From: a virus
DNA length: 23,002 bases
Virus record (IMG/VR): IMGVR_UViG_3300049020_000082
Coordinates: 1 to 23,002 of that record
Strand: one strand, 5' to 3'
Each line of letters begins with the position of its first letter. Position 1 is the stretch's first letter. Shown here piece after piece: positions 1-9,818 of the stretch. The translations under genes and the position numbers were made by a program. Under the pieces are notes generated by a model, which made no database searches, was not told the DNA's origin, and was given only the letters and a program-made list of their open reading frames with translations.

Positions 1-92
1 CGCCTGTGGCGCCTGCGCCCGCTCCGGAGCCTCCGCCGTCAGAGCCGCCACCCGCGCCGCGCAGGATGGTGCAGTTAGATCTGTTCTCGTAG
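1..92 (+). CDS. C-terminal end of an unidentified protein with a beta-clamp-binding-like tail
   Basis: Partial gene entering from the left edge; the reading frame starts at base 3 and stops with TAG at 90-92. The last 29 residues are a proline/alanine/glutamate-rich linker followed by MVQLDLFS. QLDLF matches the consensus by which many replication and repair proteins bind the hydrophobic cleft of the DNA polymerase III beta sliding clamp; such motifs often sit at the end of a flexible tail. Polymerases, nucleases, mismatch-repair proteins and some phage DNA-modifying enzymes carry it, so the enzyme class cannot be told. Third positions are mostly G/C, which supports coding. It converges on the leftward gene ending at 120, with 27 bases between the stops. 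Whether it belongs to the prophage or the flanking chromosome is unknown. Confidence 0.6.
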   Translation, partial: PVAPAPAPEPPPSEPPPAPRRMVQLDLFS

Positions 93-119
93 AGAACACG
101 CCAGCATGCCGGTGCGCAG

Positions 120-1091
120 CTATTTCTTTTTGATTCCCGGCGGGCTGCTCGTCGGCGCGAACGCCGCAACGGGCGGAGAGGGAGTCGGAGCGGGCGGGAG
201 CCTCCCATCCGGCGTGTCGACGGCCGCCAAGATCAGTTCCGCAGTGCTCGGCGGGAGGTCGCCGTTCTTGACCTTCCCGTTCAAGTAGTTCGGAAACTTC
301 TCCCTGATGTACGTGTCGAACATCCACCGGCGGAACTCGCCCAATGCGGCGACGGGGTATGCCCATGGCACCTGCGGGTTCGACGCCGCCTGCGGGAAGT
401 AGCTGGGGTAGTTGTGCGCATACTTGGTCCGTTCGCCGAATTGCGCCTCCAGGCCATTCTCGGTCCAGTGCGCGCTCCAGAACCTGCCGACGCTGATGTC
501 GGGCACCGTTCCGGCGTCGACTGTCAGCCCGCCCTGAATGGCAGCCAAAACGATATCCGACATCTCCCGAAACACGCTGAAGTAGCCACGCGGCACGACG
601 TTTAAAACGAGTCGATCGTGGAACTGACGCCACGCCTCCGGGATCCGCCTGGAAGGATCGTATCCCGTGGCTTGGTAGATGAAGAGGCGCAGCGCGCTTC
701 TGGCGAGCAGGCGGTAGTTCGTCAGCGCCGTGAAGTTGCCGGTCGTCTGCTCTGCCTCGAATGCGTAGTATTCGAGAATGAGCATGCACACGTCGTCGGT
801 GTACGCGTGAACGGTCGTGCCGTTGACCTTGGTCTCGATGTAGAGGTGCTCGCGCATCGGCTGCGCCGTCAGGATGAACCGCGCAAGCCGCCCGTCCCGC
901 TTGCCACTCTTCCAGTTCTGTCCTTGCTGCAAAATGGTGCTAGGGGCGACGCCGCAGAGCGTCGCGAGGCTGCGAGCGGTCAGGTAGCCGGTCCCGTCTT
1001 CCAACACACCCATTTCCAGCCCGTTCACTTCGCGTGCGGCCACGACCGCAAGCGGCGCAGGCTGTATTGGAGCTAACTTATTGTCGCTCAT
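120..1091 (-). CDS. BstA-like prophage anti-phage (abortive infection) protein
   Basis: A 323-residue soluble protein. Residues about 35-60 form a KilA-N/HTH-like segment (GYLTARSLATLCGV). Residues about 140-265 resemble the C-terminal domain of BstA-type proteins, with signatures such as IPEAWRQFHDR, VPDISVGRFW, HNYPSYFPQA and ALGEFRRWM. The tail is proline-rich and ends in KKK. BstA proteins are made by lysogens and stop replication of incoming phages, while the home prophage is spared by a DNA element (aba) in the bstA locus; that is family knowledge, not shown here. The ATG at 1091 is preceded by GAGGTG with 5 bases spacing. It is leftward and separated from the regulatory operon by 180 bases with its own candidate promoter. 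Its GC content looks lower than the structural genes, suggesting a transferred accessory (moron) gene. The assignment is from recalled family features and could instead be a generic KilA-N-type antirepressor. Confidence 0.6.
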   Translation of the reverse strand: MSDNKLAPIQPAPLAVVAAREVNGLEMGVLEDGTGYLTARSLATLCGVAPSTILQQGQNWKSGKRDGRLARFILTAQPMREHLYIETKVNGTTVHAYTDDVCMLILEYYAFEAEQTTGNFTALTNYRLLARSALRLFIYQATGYDPSRRIPEAWRQFHDRLVLNVVPRGYFSVFREMSDIVLAAIQGGLTVDAGTVPDISVGRFWSAHWTENGLEAQFGERTKYAHNYPSYFPQAASNPQVPWAYPVAALGEFRRWMFDTYIREKFPNYLNGKVKNGDLPPSTAELILAAVDTPDGRLPPAPTPSPPVAAFAPTSSPPGIKKK

Positions 1092-1156
1092 CCGATCACC
1101 TCAATTGCAATGATTACAATAGGTTACGGCTACAAATGCCCCGAGATCCGATCACC
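1090..1156 (-). repeat. 11-bp direct repeat pair in the leader of the BstA-like gene
   Basis: GGTGATCGGAT (minus strand) occurs at 1156-1146 and again at 1100-1090. The second copy covers part of the ribosome binding site and the first two bases of the start codon. The copies are 56 bases apart. The position suits an operator, a translational control site or a self-immunity element of the kind described for BstA loci. The repeat is seen; the role is inference. Confidence 0.5.
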
Positions 1157-1216
1157 CAGGGAACGTAAGGCAGCCAACAGTAGCCTGACGTTCGGCGGAG
1201 GTAGTCGAAGCTAGGA

Positions 1217-1245
1217 CGTATCGCAGGCCAGGCGACCGGAGTCAA
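1217..1245 (-). promoter_or_regulatory. Candidate promoter of the BstA-like gene
   Basis: On the minus strand, TTGACT (1245-1240) lies exactly 17 bases from GATACG (1222-1217). The -35 is near consensus and the -10 is weak. Transcription from it would give a leader of roughly 115-120 bases before the ATG at 1091. Called on sequence match only. Confidence 0.4.
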
Positions 1246-1280
1246 GCCGGCGGCGTGGGCTGGGGAGCGAGCGAGCGGGG

Positions 1281-1517
1281 CTACGCGCGCGTGAAGTGCC
1301 GCTCGATGGCGTCGAGGATTTGCAAGGCGCCGCGCGCTTCCGCGACGGCCTCGCGTTCAGCGCGCGTCGTCGCGCTCATCTGAGCGGCGAGCACGGCGGC
1401 CCAGAGCCGGTCATGGTCCCAGGGGTGGACGACGTACGGGTCAAGGGCGCGCGCCTGCTCCGCGAGGTAGGTGAGGTCGTCAGGGGTCAGCACGCGGCGT
1501 GTCTCGCGGTCGTTCAT
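1281..1517 (-). CDS. Small unknown protein, third gene of the leftward regulatory operon
   Basis: A 78-residue protein (MNDRETRRVL...) that I do not recognise. It is helix-rich, with an alanine/glutamate-rich second half (SATTRAEREAVAEARGAL) and no membrane segment or cysteine motif. The ATG at 1517 is chosen because it overlaps the stop of the sigma-like gene as ATGA and has GAGG 8 bases upstream; a GTG three codons earlier is possible. The coupling suggests co-regulation with, and perhaps an accessory role to, the sigma-like and HTH proteins. An anti-sigma role is conceivable but unsupported. Confidence 0.6.
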   Translation of the reverse strand: MNDRETRRVLTPDDLTYLAEQARALDPYVVHPWDHDRLWAAVLAAQMSATTRAEREAVAEARGALQILDAIERHFTRA

Positions 1518-2074
1518 CGTCGCCACCTCTTCAACCGAAGCGCCAGCGCCTCGCGCGCGATCCTGAGCCGCGACGCTGCCGTCGATGGGTTCATCCTGCG
1601 GCGCTTGGCGTACGCGACGAGGCTCTCCGGGCTGTCGACGGAGAGCAGCGCCTCCAACTGCCAGGGCGGGAGCTCGGCCATGGCGTCGAGCACCTCACGC
1701 GCCTCGATCTGGGCGTGCATGTCGATGCCGACCGGCTCGTGCAGGAACCCGAGCGGCGACGGGTGGAGCACGGCGCGCCGCACGTACGCGCTGTTGACGT
1801 AGTGCGAGGCGAGGCGCCACGCGATGCCGTGGAGCCACTTCCTCAGCGCGTCGCGCGGCTTGTCCCGCGGGTCCGGTCTGTAGAGCCCTCGGCGGACGGC
1901 GTTCCAGGCGTTGAGCAGCACCTCGGCCTCTACGTCGCGGCGGTCCCGTCGCGGGATGCCGGCGAGCGTGGCGAGGATGAGGCCGCGCTCCGCGAGGATC
2001 GCGGTGATCGTCGGCTTCTTCTTCGGATGTCGTGCGGTCGGCTGGCTCTTCGCCCCCTTCCGCCGGGGCTTCAC
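1514..2074 (-). CDS. ECF-like sigma-70 family RNA polymerase sigma factor
   Basis: A 186-residue protein with a basic N-terminus. Residues about 40-85 resemble sigma region 2 (RRDVEAEVLLNAWNAV ... KWLHGIAWRLASHYV), including the aromatic/basic helix used for -10 recognition. Residues about 130-183 resemble region 4 (AMAELPPWQLEALLSVDSPE ... MNPSTAASRLRIAREAL), an HTH that reads the -35. The size suits ECF-group sigma factors. The GTG start overlaps the stop of the HTH gene by 4 bases (GTGA), so translation is probably coupled. A prophage sigma factor could direct host RNA polymerase to phage promoters; candidate targets are the control regions at 2407-2834, 6101-6265 and 12922-13258. The match is by motif layout, and specificity is unknown. 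Confidence 0.65.
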   Translation of the reverse strand: MKPRRKGAKSQPTARHPKKKPTITAILAERGLILATLAGIPRRDRRDVEAEVLLNAWNAVRRGLYRPDPRDKPRDALRKWLHGIAWRLASHYVNSAYVRRAVLHPSPLGFLHEPVGIDMHAQIEAREVLDAMAELPPWQLEALLSVDSPESLVAYAKRRRMNPSTAASRLRIAREALALRLKRWRR

Positions 2075-2406
2075 CCGGATCTCCCGCAGGTTGGGCAGCG
2101 ATGGACCGGAGCGAGGTCACCGAGCAGCTGCTCGATGGTGACGCCCGCTGCCTTCGCAGCGCGCAGCGCGGTCGCTGGGGAGCCGTTGGCCCTGCCGTTC
2201 GCGATGCTCTCGAGCGCGATGACGGACATGTCCATCACCTCGGCCAAGCAGGACCACGAGCCGTACGCGGCGCGAAGGCTGCGCAAGGCTGCCCGGAGGC
2301 GTTTGCGCTGCGTGGGGGTCAGGGAGAGGCAAGGGGCGAAGCGGCGGCGCCGTGTAGGCGCACCTCCGCCTTGCCCACCGTCGGGTGGGATCAGGTACAG
2401 TTGCAC
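2071..2406 (-). CDS. Small helix-turn-helix transcriptional regulator
   Basis: A 111-residue protein, first gene of the leftward operon. After a basic N-terminus, residues about 30-95 form an XRE/Cro-like helical domain (QRKRLRAALRSLRAAYGSWS, then LAEVMDMSVIALESIANGRA, then SPATALRAAKAAGVTIEQLL). The C-terminus carries HRCPTCGR, a two-cysteine knuckle that could bind metal only by pairing with another subunit. The GTG at 2406 has GAGGT 7 bases upstream. It faces the P63C gene across a control region with TTGACC/GGTCAA repeats, the position expected of a lysogeny repressor or Cro-type regulator. That role is inferred from position. Confidence 0.65.
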   Translation of the reverse strand: MQLYLIPPDGGQGGGAPTRRRRFAPCLSLTPTQRKRLRAALRSLRAAYGSWSCLAEVMDMSVIALESIANGRANGSPATALRAAKAAGVTIEQLLGDLAPVHRCPTCGRSG

Positions 2407-2530
2407 TGTCGGACCTCGGTAGCTCGGGGTTCGGCCACGCTGCCCGGTGCGTTGGCGCGCACGCGGGCAGCACTTCCTTGCGCCGAACGCTACGGACCGA
2501 GATCGAGGTTCGCCACGCGAATCAGGCTAT

Positions 2531-2557
2531 TTTGACCACTAAGGGTCAAAGTTGACC
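2531..2557. promoter_or_regulatory. Operator-like alternating half-sites
   Basis: TTTGACC (2531-2537) is followed after 6 bases by its exact complement GGTCAAA (2544-2550), then after one base by TTGACC (2552-2557). Each neighbouring pair forms an inverted repeat. TTGACC is also a -35-like hexamer, so a protein bound here would block a promoter. Likely bound by the product of the HTH gene; the binding is inference. Confidence 0.55.
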
Positions 2558-2602
2558 ATTACCCAGGCCCGGCTGGGTGATACGCGGCGCGCGCTATGAC
2601 AT

Positions 2603-2616
2603 GCGTCGGCCGACGC
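2603..2616. promoter_or_regulatory. Perfect 14-bp palindrome
   Basis: GCGTCGGCCGACGC is its own reverse complement. TGAC (2597-2600) and GTCA (2617-2620) flank it as outer arms offset by two bases. It lies in the divergent control region and could be a second dimer-binding site. No partner protein is identified. Confidence 0.4.
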
Positions 2617-2834
2617 GTCAGGGCAAAAAATGAAGCGGTGTCCGCTTCTGGTTCTGCATCGGCGGATGCGCTCATTTCCGGGGCACAGCTGCCTTGACGC
2701 ACTCGACAGTCGCGGTCACACAAGACGCATTCGATCGCGTGAATATGCCGCGGCTGAAGCACGCTGTTTCAGCGGCAATGAAATTGCCCGGCGCTTTGGA
2801 GAGCCCGGGCGTGATCGCCGAGAGGTGTTCGACG

Positions 2835-3707
2835 ATGGGGAAAGAGAAGCACGGTGGATCGAACAGCGCAACCGGCAGCGGGAGCCCTCCGAGGGCTATC
2901 CACCGCTCCACCATCTTCGGTGGCGCGGTCGACGTCTACCTGCTCGATGACGGGCAGGAGCTGATCTCGAAGCGCGGCGTGATGCGCGGACTTGCGGGCC
3001 GGCGCACGGACAACGGTGGGGCCAAAGACGGCAAGCTGGACCGGCTTTTGGCCAGATTGCCGGATGAATACGCGGACTTGCGCGCTGGGGCCAAAGTCGC
3101 GTTCATCATGCCGGAGGGCGGCCTCGCTGAGGGGATCTCTCCGCTCAGCTTCGCAGACATCCTCGGGGCATACGCAGACCTGTTCCTTGCTGGCAGACTG
3201 CGCGAAAACCAGGAGCACCTTGGTCGGAACGCCATCGCGATCCTTCGGGCCGCGTCGAAGCTCGGCCTCTCCGAACTCGTCTCGGAGGCGCTCGGGACAA
3301 CCTGTCCTGCCGAGCAGCGCCACCGTGAGCGGCTCTTCCACGATCTGCTCCGGAGCGATGCTGGCGTCTGGGATCTTGCCTTCGACGTGACCCTGGTGCG
3401 AGCGCTCGCGCCGCTCTACGGCATCACCTACATGAATGGACCATACCCGAAGGGCCTGCATATGCCGTTCGGCATGATCTACGAGATGATCTTCGGGGTG
3501 GAGGTCGCCGTCGAGCTCAGGAAGCGCAACGAGCGACCCGAGACGTACAACCACCACCAGTACCTGCGCCCGCGTGGTGGGTCGACTCTCCGGAATGAAC
3601 TGGAGATCGTGGAGTTGTTGGCTCGACAGAGTCGAACGAAGGGCGAGTTCTGGGGCCGAATGCGGTCCCACTATCTTGGCGAGCCGCTGCAACTCGGATT
3701 TGCCTGA
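2835..3707 (+). CDS. P63C-domain phage protein
   Basis: A 290-residue protein. Residues about 20-60 (HRSTIFGGAVDVYLLDDGQE, then LISKRGVMRGLAG) match the usual start of P63C-family proteins, a compact beta unit followed by a helix. Residues about 195-290 match the P63C domain, named after the phage phiC31 gp63 C-terminus (LYGITYMNGPYPKGL, then MIYEMIFGVEVAVELRKRNE, then YNHHQYL, then the C-terminal helices). Its biochemical role is not established; it is found in phages and mobile elements. The ATG at 2835 is preferred over 2694 because GAGAGGTG precedes it and the family-like sequence starts just after. It is rightward, divergent from the HTH operon, and of slightly lower GC, like the BstA-like gene. 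Confidence 0.75.
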   Translation: MGKEKHGGSNSATGSGSPPRAIHRSTIFGGAVDVYLLDDGQELISKRGVMRGLAGRRTDNGGAKDGKLDRLLARLPDEYADLRAGAKVAFIMPEGGLAEGISPLSFADILGAYADLFLAGRLRENQEHLGRNAIAILRAASKLGLSELVSEALGTTCPAEQRHRERLFHDLLRSDAGVWDLAFDVTLVRALAPLYGITYMNGPYPKGLHMPFGMIYEMIFGVEVAVELRKRNERPETYNHHQYLRPRGGSTLRNELEIVELLARQSRTKGEFWGRMRSHYLGEPLQLGFA

Positions 3708-6923: not shown

Positions 6924-7167
6924 CGCTCTCGACGTGGAGATCGCCAGAGTGACGGCTGCCGCAGAGCGCGCCGACGACCGGCTGCATGAGCTGCGCCTCG
7001 AGGCGAAAGGTGGCTGCTGTCCCGACTGCGTACTCGGCGAGCGCTGGACCGTGCCCGTGGACGCTCAGCAGAGGCGGCTCGCGTGGCTCCGCATCCTGCT
7101 GGGCAAGCGAGGCGCCTTCGGTGATGCCGAACTGGCGCGCGACATCGAGCGGGACATATGGCCGTGA
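6916..7167 (+). CDS. Small unknown protein upstream of the terminase
   Basis: An 83-residue protein. The first 30 residues look like a coiled coil (LDVEIARVTAAAERADDRLH); then comes a cysteine cluster (GGCCPDCVLGERW) and a second helix (AQQRRLAWLRILLGKRG). GAGG precedes the ATG by 2-6 bases. It overlaps the terminase gene by 10 bases, so the two are probably made together. A packaging accessory role is inferred from position only. Confidence 0.6.
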   Translation: MGSALDVEIARVTAAAERADDRLHELRLEAKGGCCPDCVLGERWTVPVDAQQRRLAWLRILLGKRGAFGDAELARDIERDIWP

Positions 7168-9818
7168 CCGGCGAGCCGGCGGGCCTAGGCGAGCTCGTGC
7201 TGCGGAAGCGGCGCGAGATGGGGGCGCGGGCCAAGGCGCTGCCGACGTGGACGCCGCAGCCGGGGCCGCAGACCGAGTTCTACGAGTCGACCGCTGACGA
7301 GGTGCTGTACGGCGGCGCGGCTGGCCCTGGCAAGTCGTCCGCCGCCGTGGCCCTGCCGCTGCGGTGGGCGCATCACCCGATGTACCGGGCCCTCGTCCTA
7401 CGGCGCGAGACACCGCAGCTCGAGGACCTCTTCGACAAGGCGCGGTCCATCTACCAGCGCGGCCAGCCCGACGGGGCGAGGCCATACCGCGCGGCGGACG
7501 CCGCTGCCGAGTTCAACAGCGTCAAGGGGACGTGGACATTCAAGAGCGGCGCCCGCGTGCGGTTCAACCACTGCCAGCGCGACGACGACGCCTTCAACTA
7601 CCAGGGCCACGAGTACCAGACGATCATCTTCGATGAGCTGACGCACTTCACCGAGAAGCAGTACCTCGAGGTCAAGAGCCGCAATCGGTCCGGTATCCCC
7701 GATCTCCCGACCTACGTGCGCAGCACCACGAACCCGGGTGGGCCCGGGCACTGCGTGCCGCACGGGGAGGTGTTGACCCCCGGTGGCTGGCGAGACATTC
7801 GCGAGATGCAGGTCGGCGATCCGGTCTACTCTGTCCGGCCAGACGGTGAGCTCTACCAGACGCGCGTCGCCCAGGTGCACAAGTCGGAGTTCGACGGAGA
7901 GCTTGTGGAGGTGAGCGCGCGCGGGCTGCGGATCGTCTGCACGCCTAATCACAAGGTCGCGAAGGTCGGCGGCCGACGCGCCGGGCTGCATACCCGAGGC
8001 GGCGCGGTCGACACCTTCAGTTTGGTCCCGTTCTGCGAGCTCCCAGGGCAGGCGACGATCTTGCGAACGGTGCGATGGGTGGGACACGACCTCGCCGAAT
8101 TCCACCTGCCGGCGGTCCGAGCGAAGAACCAGTCGCACCTGCAGCCGACAAGGCTCAGCGGCCGGGACTTCTGCGAGCTGCTGGGATGGTACTTGTCCGA
8201 GGGCACATTCATCTACGAGCCCGAGAAGAAGTGGTTCAACATCGCCCAGGAGAAACCGGAGAACCGGTCGAAGATCGGGTCGCTGCTCGAGCGCAACTGC
8301 TTCAAGTACCACACCGGCCCGTCGGGCTTCACCGTCCACTCTGTGCCGTGGGCTGCGTACTTCTCGCAGTTCGGAAGGTGCAGGGACAAGTTCATCCCGG
8401 ACTGGGTAAAAGCTGGAAGCGTCGATGATCTGCGGGTGCTGTTTGACGCCATGATGGCGGGGGATGGCCACTGGCTGACGCCTGGCGAGTCTGGCTCCTA
8501 CTACACTATATCTGCGAAGCTGGCGGACGACGTCGCAGAGGTCGCGCTCAAGCTTGGCTACGTGGTCTACCAGTCGTCTCGGCAGCGGGAGCAGCGCAAT
8601 GGGCTTTCCTACGAGGTCTCGTTCAAGCGCACCAAGTCGGGTGGCACCGAGATCCTGACGGGGCAGCACTGCTACAACGTAGCGACCGCTACGACGCGTA
8701 GGTCGGACATCGTCAGGACCAAGTACACCGGTCCGGTGTACTGCATCGGGATCGACGAAACGCACTCCTTTCTCATCCGGCAGAACGGCTCGGTGTGGGT
8801 CAGCGGCAACTCCTGGGTCTTCAAACGGTGGGGCCCGTGGCTCGACCCCGACTTCAAGCTCGACGACTGGGAGCACGTGGACGTCCTGCCAGACGGATCG
8901 ACGGTCGTCGTGCGCGGCCATGGCCTCCCTCAGCGCATTGAGGGTGGCAAGAAGCTGCCGCCTGCGCGCGGGAGCCAGGTGCTCTACGTGGCCCGCATCG
9001 GCGAACGAGAGGTGTTCTCGACGCAGCCGTTCCGCATCGGCGGCGAGGAGGCCACGACCCGCACGTTCATCCCGGCCCGCCTCAGCGACAACCCAGCGCT
9101 GCTCGCCTCCGACCCGAAGTACCGCGCGAAGCTCCGCGACAACGACCCGGTGCGGCGGCGGCAGCTCGAGGATGGCGACTGGCTCGTGCGGCCCGCTGCT
9201 GGCCTCTACTTCAAGCGCGCGTGGTTCGAGATCGTGGACGAGGCGCCATCGGACTGCGTGTGGGTGCGCGCTTGGGACAAGGCATCCACGGAGCCGCACC
9301 CGGGGAACCGCGACCCCGACTGGACGCGCGGCGTGCTGCTCGGCAAGCACGCAGACGGCTACTACTACGTGGGCCACGTCGCCGGCATGCGCGGCGGCCC
9401 CGGCGCTGTCACGCGCTTCATGCGCCAGACGGCGGAGGTCGACACGTCCGCGGTGAGCATCCGCGTCCCGCAGGACCCTGGGTCTGCTGGCGTCCAGGCA
9501 TCGACGGCCGATGTGCGCGCGCTGGATGGGTTCGCCGTCAAGGCGGTGCGCGTGACCGGCAGCAAGCTCGACCGAGCGCGCCCGGTGTCGTCGCAGGCTG
9601 ACCCGCAGAGCACCGGCGAGAAGCACGGGCGCTTCCGCGTGGTGCGCGGCGACTGGAACGAAGCGTTCTTCTCCGAGCTCCAGAACTTCGACGGCGACAA
9701 GAACAACGGCGACCACGACGACCAGGTGGACGCCCTCTCCGACGCCTACGACGAGCTGAAGGGCGTCGACCTCGAAGAGGACAACCGGCCCATCAAAGCC
9801 GGCAGGCGCAGATGGTGA
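7158..9818 (+). CDS. Phage large terminase subunit (intein-containing precursor)
   Basis: An 886-residue precursor of the ATPase-nuclease motor that packages DNA into proheads. The ATPase domain has Walker A GGAAGPGKS (52-60), Walker B TIIFDEL (155-161, D159/E160) and the coupling motif NPGGPGH (192-198). After the intein (199-551), SWVFKRW resumes the terminase. The C-terminal RNase-H-like nuclease shows three acidic sites: AWDKAST (D707), QDPGSAG (D773) and HDDQVDALSDAY (853-864, D858). Removing the intein leaves 533 residues, normal for the family. The ATG overlaps the previous gene. The extein keeps the high local GC, while the intein is visibly less GC-rich. Confidence 0.93.
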   Translation: MAVTGEPAGLGELVLRKRREMGARAKALPTWTPQPGPQTEFYESTADEVLYGGAAGPGKSSAAVALPLRWAHHPMYRALVLRRETPQLEDLFDKARSIYQRGQPDGARPYRAADAAAEFNSVKGTWTFKSGARVRFNHCQRDDDAFNYQGHEYQTIIFDELTHFTEKQYLEVKSRNRSGIPDLPTYVRSTTNPGGPGHCVPHGEVLTPGGWRDIREMQVGDPVYSVRPDGELYQTRVAQVHKSEFDGELVEVSARGLRIVCTPNHKVAKVGGRRAGLHTRGGAVDTFSLVPFCELPGQATILRTVRWVGHDLAEFHLPAVRAKNQSHLQPTRLSGRDFCELLGWYLSEGTFIYEPEKKWFNIAQEKPENRSKIGSLLERNCFKYHTGPSGFTVHSVPWAAYFSQFGRCRDKFIPDWVKAGSVDDLRVLFDAMMAGDGHWLTPGESGSYYTISAKLADDVAEVALKLGYVVYQSSRQREQRNGLSYEVSFKRTKSGGTEILTGQHCYNVATATTRRSDIVRTKYTGPVYCIGIDETHSFLIRQNGSVWVSGNSWVFKRWGPWLDPDFKLDDWEHVDVLPDGSTVVVRGHGLPQRIEGGKKLPPARGSQVLYVARIGEREVFSTQPFRIGGEEATTRTFIPARLSDNPALLASDPKYRAKLRDNDPVRRRQLEDGDWLVRPAAGLYFKRAWFEIVDEAPSDCVWVRAWDKASTEPHPGNRDPDWTRGVLLGKHADGYYYVGHVAGMRGGPGAVTRFMRQTAEVDTSAVSIRVPQDPGSAGVQASTADVRALDGFAVKAVRVTGSKLDRARPVSSQADPQSTGEKHGRFRVVRGDWNEAFFSELQNFDGDKNNGDHDDQVDALSDAYDELKGVDLEEDNRPIKAGRRRW
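7752..8810 (+). mobile_element. LAGLIDADG-type intein in the terminase gene
   Basis: A 353-residue in-frame intein (precursor residues 199-551). It begins with Cys1 (CVPHGEVLTPGGW), has the block B T-x-x-H motif (CTPNHKV), two LAGLIDADG-like helices (ELLGWYLSEGTF and LFDAMMAGDGHW), block F (VYCIGIDETHSFLI) and ends VSGN before Ser+1 of SWVF. The splice junctions follow from the terminase motif NPGGPGH-SWV. The usual penultimate histidine is glycine here, an atypical but not unprecedented block G. The endonuclease helices retain acidic residues at the active-site ends (SEG, GDG), so homing activity is possible. Confidence 0.9.

Follow-up and report, generated by a model that had tools for sequence, protein, structure and literature searches.

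Paired direct repeats at a fixed spacing form a candidate self-immunity element in a phage bstA locus and its relatives, and probably follow one small helix of BstA

The window, the whole 23,002-bp stretch of DNA analysed here, is an IMG/VR virus record of high GC content (63–73% GC, about 31% AT). Pfam and PHROG searches detect a terminase, a Mu-type portal, Mu F-like and I-like head genes and a major head protein, and the carrier of the bstA gene described here is, by its origin in a virus record and by its terminase, portal and head genes, a phage or prophage. The best matches of the portal are in Meiothermus phages (40%) and, lower down, in Myxococcus phage Mx4 (33%). The bstA gene lies on the minus strand (1091..120) and codes for an abortive-infection protein of 323 residues, of the BstA family, which is known to block competing viruses. 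Upstream of it and on the same strand, three overlapping ORFs occupy positions 1281..2406: an XRE-like ORF (2406–2071), a sigma-like ORF (2074–1514) and an ORF of 81 amino acids (1526–1281). None of the three has a Pfam or PHROG match, the XRE-like and sigma-like labels being given by eye only; possibly, they form a regulator cluster, which would fit the usual place of bstA, commonly found downstream of the prophage repressor (Owen et al., 2021; PMC8585504). The nearest related phage contig that we found, L576, has a portal 70% identical to that of the window but no match to this BstA (the contig may be a fragment), and for this reason the window bstA looks like an accessory gene.

The original prediction was of a BstA-like protein with a KilA-N-like start, and its first part is well supported. 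The protein matches the PADLOC BstA profile (PDLC02356) with an E value of 2e-108, over profile positions 9–289 of 292, and PHROG 6287 ('BstA abortive infection system') with an E value of 9e-87; by tblastn, it is 37–49% identical to the BstA proteins of named phages (43–49% for most of them), with 43% identity to that of the Salmonella prophage BTP1. Judged by these profile and similarity matches, the assignment of the ORF to BstA appears secure; Pfam and NCBIfam hold no useful model for it. As for the KilA-N-like start, Pfam gives no KilA-N match; the AlphaFold model of the protein (mean pLDDT of 86, built from 41 sequences) has an N-terminal helix-turn-helix (HTH) domain. This HTH/KilA-N-like domain is predicted at about residues 16–150 and is followed by a C-terminal domain (about residues 151–291) and a Pro-rich tail. 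The predicted HTH, as assigned by DSSP in the model, covers codons 39–61 (909..977, minus strand), with helices at 39–46 and 50–61; codons 49–56 (APSTILQQ; 924..947, minus strand) correspond to the start of the second, predicted recognition helix. BstA has no sequence relative among solved structures, and a Foldseek search of the PDB with the model returned a best E value of 0.5. VIA-align matched residues 17–133 mainly to DNA-binding domains (RacA, MerR-type, DdrC and APSES), weakly and with Z scores under 6. Since the structure matches concern residues 17–133, we do not claim a new fold for the C-terminal domain.

Some distant homologues of the C-terminal half of BstA have a true Pfam KilA-N domain in the place of the N-terminal domain. 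In the proteins of loci L567, L568–L571, L574 and L575, a BstA-like C-terminal half is joined to an N-terminal domain of the classic KilA-N type. The BstA profile is matched by the C-terminal domain of L567 and L575, for example, whereas the N-terminal domain of L567 is Pfam KilA-N (PF04383, E value of 1.3e-22) and not of the BstA type. Four such matches, of equal length and score, are found in one genome (G320), and the two that were read (L568 and L569) are identical. The domain matches suggest that the C-terminal domain of BstA may be used with exchangeable DNA-binding heads. In another genome (G185), of the same phylum as the genome of locus L008, bstA is split across two reading frames (L562/L563) and is apparently a broken copy.

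An exact 11-bp direct repeat, GGTGATCGGAT on the gene strand and ATCCGATCACC on the plus strand, is found at 1146..1156 and at 1090..1100, with a start-to-start distance of 56 bp; both positions, and the exactness of the repeat, agree with the original prediction. The distal half-site (copy 1) extends from −65 to −55 relative to the start codon, while the proximal half-site (copy 2) ends within the ATG (1091–1089), covering its first two bases, and contains most of the Shine-Dalgarno sequence GAGGTGATC (1094..1102, minus strand), so that one copy does cover the ribosome binding site, as had been claimed. We take GAGGTGATC (1102–1094) to be a strong Shine-Dalgarno sequence, as the complement of the 3′ end of 16S rRNA. 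Together with the 45-bp spacer (1101..1145, minus strand; 58% AT, in a contig of about 31% AT) the two half-sites make up a candidate aba, the self-immunity element of bstA loci, of 67 bp (1090..1156, minus strand), which runs from −65 to +2 and is thus upstream of the coding sequence but for two bases. An exact repeat of at least 11 bp at a spacing of 55–57 bp was obtained in 1 of 20,000 local shuffles (chance of about 5e-5), and not even a 9-mer is repeated at these spacings in any 150-nt stretch of the rest of the contig. The 23-kb contig contains no further copy of the half-site within two mismatches (shuffles average 6.3), possibly because the phage avoids the word in its own DNA, or because of codon bias. 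The promoter that had also been proposed for bstA, TTGACT-N17-GATACG, is present as letters (1217..1245, minus strand), with 8/12 consensus matches, but fails a promoter scan, in which no sequence in positions 1–3000 passes the threshold, and we do not accept it.

The only bstA locus with a mapped aba is that of BTP1 (Owen et al., 2021; PMC8585504). The element comprises 63 bp, of which 29 are upstream of bstA and 34 inside it, with CCCGCC at both ends, and immunity is lost when one G in either repeat is replaced by T (PMC8585504), a result that anchors the reading of the window repeat as a candidate aba. We find that the BTP1 repeats, too, have a start-to-start distance of 56 bp, equal to the spacing in the window. 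Immunity also depends on further bases within the 63 bp (PMC8585504), and the repeats are therefore not the whole of the element. Moreover, the bstA loci of Salmonella, Klebsiella and E. coli each protect only against their own BstA (PMC8585504). The window locus is like that of BTP1 in its BstA protein (43% identity), in being phage-borne and in having, at the start of the gene, an element with direct repeats 56 bp apart. It differs in the half-site itself (GGTGATCGGAT, as opposed to CCCGCCA), in the position of the element (−65..+2, over the ribosome binding site and barely coding, as opposed to −29..+34) and in residing in a high-GC phage with Mu-like head genes. The window locus would represent a new BstA-aba member, with its own word, GGTGATCGGAT, and an upstream-shifted element.

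A different account of the repeats is that they are an operator, through which the expression of bstA is controlled by BstA or by another factor, and that aba amounts to mere titration of BstA by extra operator copies. Copy 2 overlaps the ribosome binding site in the window, the pair, although variable in position among loci, straddles the start codon in most relatives, and residues of the HTH co-vary with the site (see below). However, the BTP1 aba acts as DNA that is not transcribed, when present in multiple copies, and its 63 bp protect from a plasmid also when BstA is produced from a foreign promoter (PMC8585504); because of this, self-immunity is not exerted via control of bstA expression. 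We thus regard an operator, although it is the main rival, as a rather unlikely explanation of the repeats, even if operator use could be an additional role of a candidate aba.

The aba reading of the window repeat is strengthened by the finding that bstA loci across the family have direct repeats with precisely this spacing. All of the first seven loci examined (7/7) have a pair at 56–57 bp; the words differ, with CCGCCAG in D14H and CCCGCCA in S137 at a spacing of 56, and TGGTCA in RCIP0114, TTAGGG in PseuP_222 and ATCCCT in CL707 at a spacing of 57. It is accordingly improbable that the window repeat is unrelated to aba and arose by local duplication of the ribosome binding site: by sequence reading, the GGTGATC of copy 2 does belong to a perfect Shine-Dalgarno sequence, but the identity of the copies extends through GGAT, past it, no start codon follows copy 1, and the spacing is the family constant, with the chance probability given above.

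A search of viral contigs with the window BstA as a single protein returned no relative, and the relatives came via alignments; profile searches led to 405 bstA loci, to which genome-wide family searches added few new full-length ones. The spacing was analysed in a non-redundant set of 123 loci, which share less than 70% identity over the 120 nt that precede a conserved Met-Gly codon pair; copy 1 was placed 150 to 90 nt before the Met-Gly codon and a local match score was computed at fixed spacing. At a spacing of 56/57, scores of at least 6, 8 and 9 are reached by 66.7%, 36.6% and 26% of the 123 loci, respectively, versus 7.3%, 1.9% and 1.1% when copy 1 of one locus is paired, in the same geometry, with copy 2 of another; control spacings give 3–7% at score 6. 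Among the first 100 loci, an exact 7-mer occurs at the right place in 41, versus 0–5 in stretches shifted upstream or into the gene. Importantly, the two copies of a given locus match each other but not those of other loci, so that base composition, a common motif or the geometry do not explain the signal. Loci found afterwards, and dissimilar to the first set, were held out, and all of them (10/10) have a pair with a score of at least 7. An attempt to count concerted changes in aligned pairs proved biased toward loci with good pairs and was replaced by the between-locus control and by the domain swaps described below.

The conserved spacing could, in principle, also stem from shared ancestry or from coding constraint, with no functional paired site. 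In one alphaproteobacterial group both copies are in frame and encode a repeated KEI[ST] motif, and coding constraint may contribute there. Yet the signal disappears when copies of different loci are paired in the same geometry, whereas it remains (63%) when the KEI group is left out; it also persists in loci whose copy 1 is cut off from the reading frame by an in-frame stop (54.5% versus 4.0%) and between proteins under 50% identical (8 of 21 clusters, versus 0.46 expected, at a score of at least 7). Moreover, unrelated half-sites at equal spacing are not expected from ancestry alone. Ancestry or coding constraint is therefore a very unlikely source of the pattern, and a functional paired site at fixed spacing remains the reading that we favour.

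Minor spacings also occur: 55 in the Verrucomicrobium locus L008 (AAAAGGTCACC) and 67 in L009 (CCGCGCACC, a word also visible in its relative L012) and in L062. A spacing of 67 bp adds about one helical turn, which hints that helical phase matters. In 33 of the 123 loci, several of them from marine gammaproteobacteria, no pair above threshold is detected (for example, L010, L013, L018, L019, L023 and L051); these loci may have other spacings or degenerate words, or may have lost aba. The repeat units of the family are GC-rich and the spacer is AT-rich (64% AT versus 50% in the flanks), although this may be ordinary, because the region upstream of the gene usually falls within the spacer. Within the family, the window pair is one of the longer exact pairs, and it is placed about 15 bp further upstream than the median (centre at −137.5 versus −122 from the conserved Met-Gly codon). 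Pairs are found in 39 of 50 viral and 45 of 67 genome contigs, a difference too small to use. According to the original prediction, a high-GC member with its own candidate aba would extend the system to a new host group. This is not supported for the window, since BstA was already known from alphaproteobacteria, in addition to beta- and gammaproteobacteria (PMC8585504). BstA relatives are nevertheless present in contigs labelled Verrucomicrobium, Limisphaerales, Methylacidimicrobium, Lentisphaerae, Leptolyngbya and Magnetobacterium, and, to the extent that these labels are right (some are of metagenome bins and may be mis-binned), would lie beyond the three proteobacterial classes of that study.

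Which part of BstA tracks the repeat was analysed with 62 BstA proteins that have a clear pair and share less than 75% identity, by comparing half-site similarity with residue identity; for each residue, numbered as in the window BstA, the association was computed with overall identity held constant and loci permuted. The residues most associated with the half-site are 50, 54, 77, 55 and 49, with 51 also associated. Over the whole protein, no stretch of eight residues is more strongly associated than 49–56 (p = 0.0005, corrected for all stretches), where the second helix of the predicted HTH begins. The same stretch is again the best when the KEI group is removed (53 proteins; corrected p = 0.033), and is still the best among the 28 proteins under 60% identity, also without the KEI group, although the association is weaker there (corrected p = 0.17), for a helix that was picked out on the full protein set. 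Several pairs of helix and word recur. The helices HHSVIQD, HHKVIQD and VHSVIQD (HxVIQD) occur with CCCGCC or CCGCC in three lineages, ARSTI/ARSVI with GGCCACC, QNAHIGTI with GGAAATC, DRKVLNR with TAGGCCCA and similar words, and SSRISE with CGCGCAC. In the helix class to which the window belongs, with PS at residues 50–51, GGTG is found in three of the four loci with a score of at least 6.5 (the window, L106 and L313). We had considered that the window half-site might have the opposite orientation to those of the family (as GATCACC, on the other strand), an idea that was dropped because L106 and L313 have GGTG on the same strand. The association suggests that the half-site is probably read by one small helix of BstA.

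Natural swaps between close relatives point in the same direction. The BstA proteins of L149 and L129 are 97% identical in the C-terminal domain but 56% in the N-terminal domain, with helices HHSVIQDL and DHTTLLPL, respectively; the half-site is CCCGCCA in L149 and CCACCA in L129, with both copies changed and a spacing of 56 bp in both loci, and the changed base is the G whose mutation in either copy inactivates the BTP1 aba. Likewise, the proteins of L002 and L095 share 98% identity in the C-terminal domain versus 67% in the N-terminal domain, with helices HHKVIQDI and SHTVILDI, and both copies are changed from CCGCCA in L002 to CCACCA in L095. Finally, two E. coli alleles with 84% protein identity have ATCCC and ATCGC, respectively, in both copies, 57 bp apart, the repeat of the second allele being read by eye. 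These swaps match the prediction of a code that would be read by the N-terminal domain. That the pair is bound by a neighbouring prophage regulator of the CI or Cro type, in keeping with the common location of bstA downstream of a prophage repressor (PMC8585504; loci L002–L007), is highly improbable, because the site follows residues of BstA itself, close relatives exchange the N-terminal domain of BstA and both sites together, and lambdoid operators are annotated elsewhere in CL707.

We propose, with good confidence, a BstA-aba module in which the HTH of BstA would read two half-sites at a fixed spacing, the occupation of which would neutralise the protein. BstA would bind DNA via its N-terminal HTH, and the tag would consist of two half-sites of roughly 7–11 bp, in the same orientation and 56 bp apart (56 or 57 bp in relatives), around the beginning of bstA. 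The half-site would be read by the first turns of the recognition helix (residues 49–56), such that each BstA would recognise only its own tag. The fixed distance and the same orientation of the half-sites suggest that one oligomer holds both. On the replicating phage's own DNA, a BstA oligomer occupying both half-sites would be inactive or sequestered and replication would proceed, while DNA with no matching pair would be attacked through the C-terminal domain. The identity of BstA, the repeat, the conserved spacing with locus-specific words and the association with the recognition helix are read here from sequences; direct binding by the helix, the single oligomer on both sites and the inactivation step are what we infer. 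A parallel can be drawn with iteron titration in the control of plasmid copy number (RepE/incC type), in which a replication protein binds same-orientation repeats and is neutralised by extra ones. Iteron systems differ in that they involve replication initiators and several, longer iterons, and we draw an analogy only, with no claim of a sequence relation.

With reasonable confidence, the proposal can be extended to all or most BstA proteins. These would carry a code in which residues 49–56 read a half-site needed twice, 56–57 bp apart (rarely 55 or 67 bp), and the exchange of the N-terminal domain together with the paired site would generate new, mutually blind self-immunity groups among prophages; aba would then be a barcode, predictable from sequence for most loci. 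In the literature that we searched, which included few subscription journals and no preprints, neither the general spacing rule nor the helix association was found, and a direct repeat is named for BTP1 only; relative to that literature, the general paired-repeat architecture appears to be new. How BstA spares its own virus was left open by Owen et al. (PMC8585504) and is now testable via the model of a fixed-spacing pair that follows one helix, which is concrete and falsifiable. The self-immunity element could be located by sequence in dozens of other bstA loci, and the model would explain how exclusive self-recognition by prophages evolves by the swap of one domain and two short words. The window adds to this a long exact pair and, via its helix class, a consistency check.

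Two other genes of the contig deserve mention. Divergent from the bstA cluster, positions 2694–3707 (plus strand) code for a protein of 337 residues that matches PHROG 2384 (unknown function) and, distantly, a phage protein with the annotation 'P63c domain'; it was not found in L576. The gene for the large subunit of the terminase (7158–9818, plus strand) contains an in-frame insertion, corresponding to residues 199–540, approximately, of the product, which the terminase gene of L576 lacks. The insertion has weak matches to intein-splicing and LAGLIDADG models (E values of 0.0057 and 0.0013, respectively, below the Pfam cut-offs), and is probably a homing intein.
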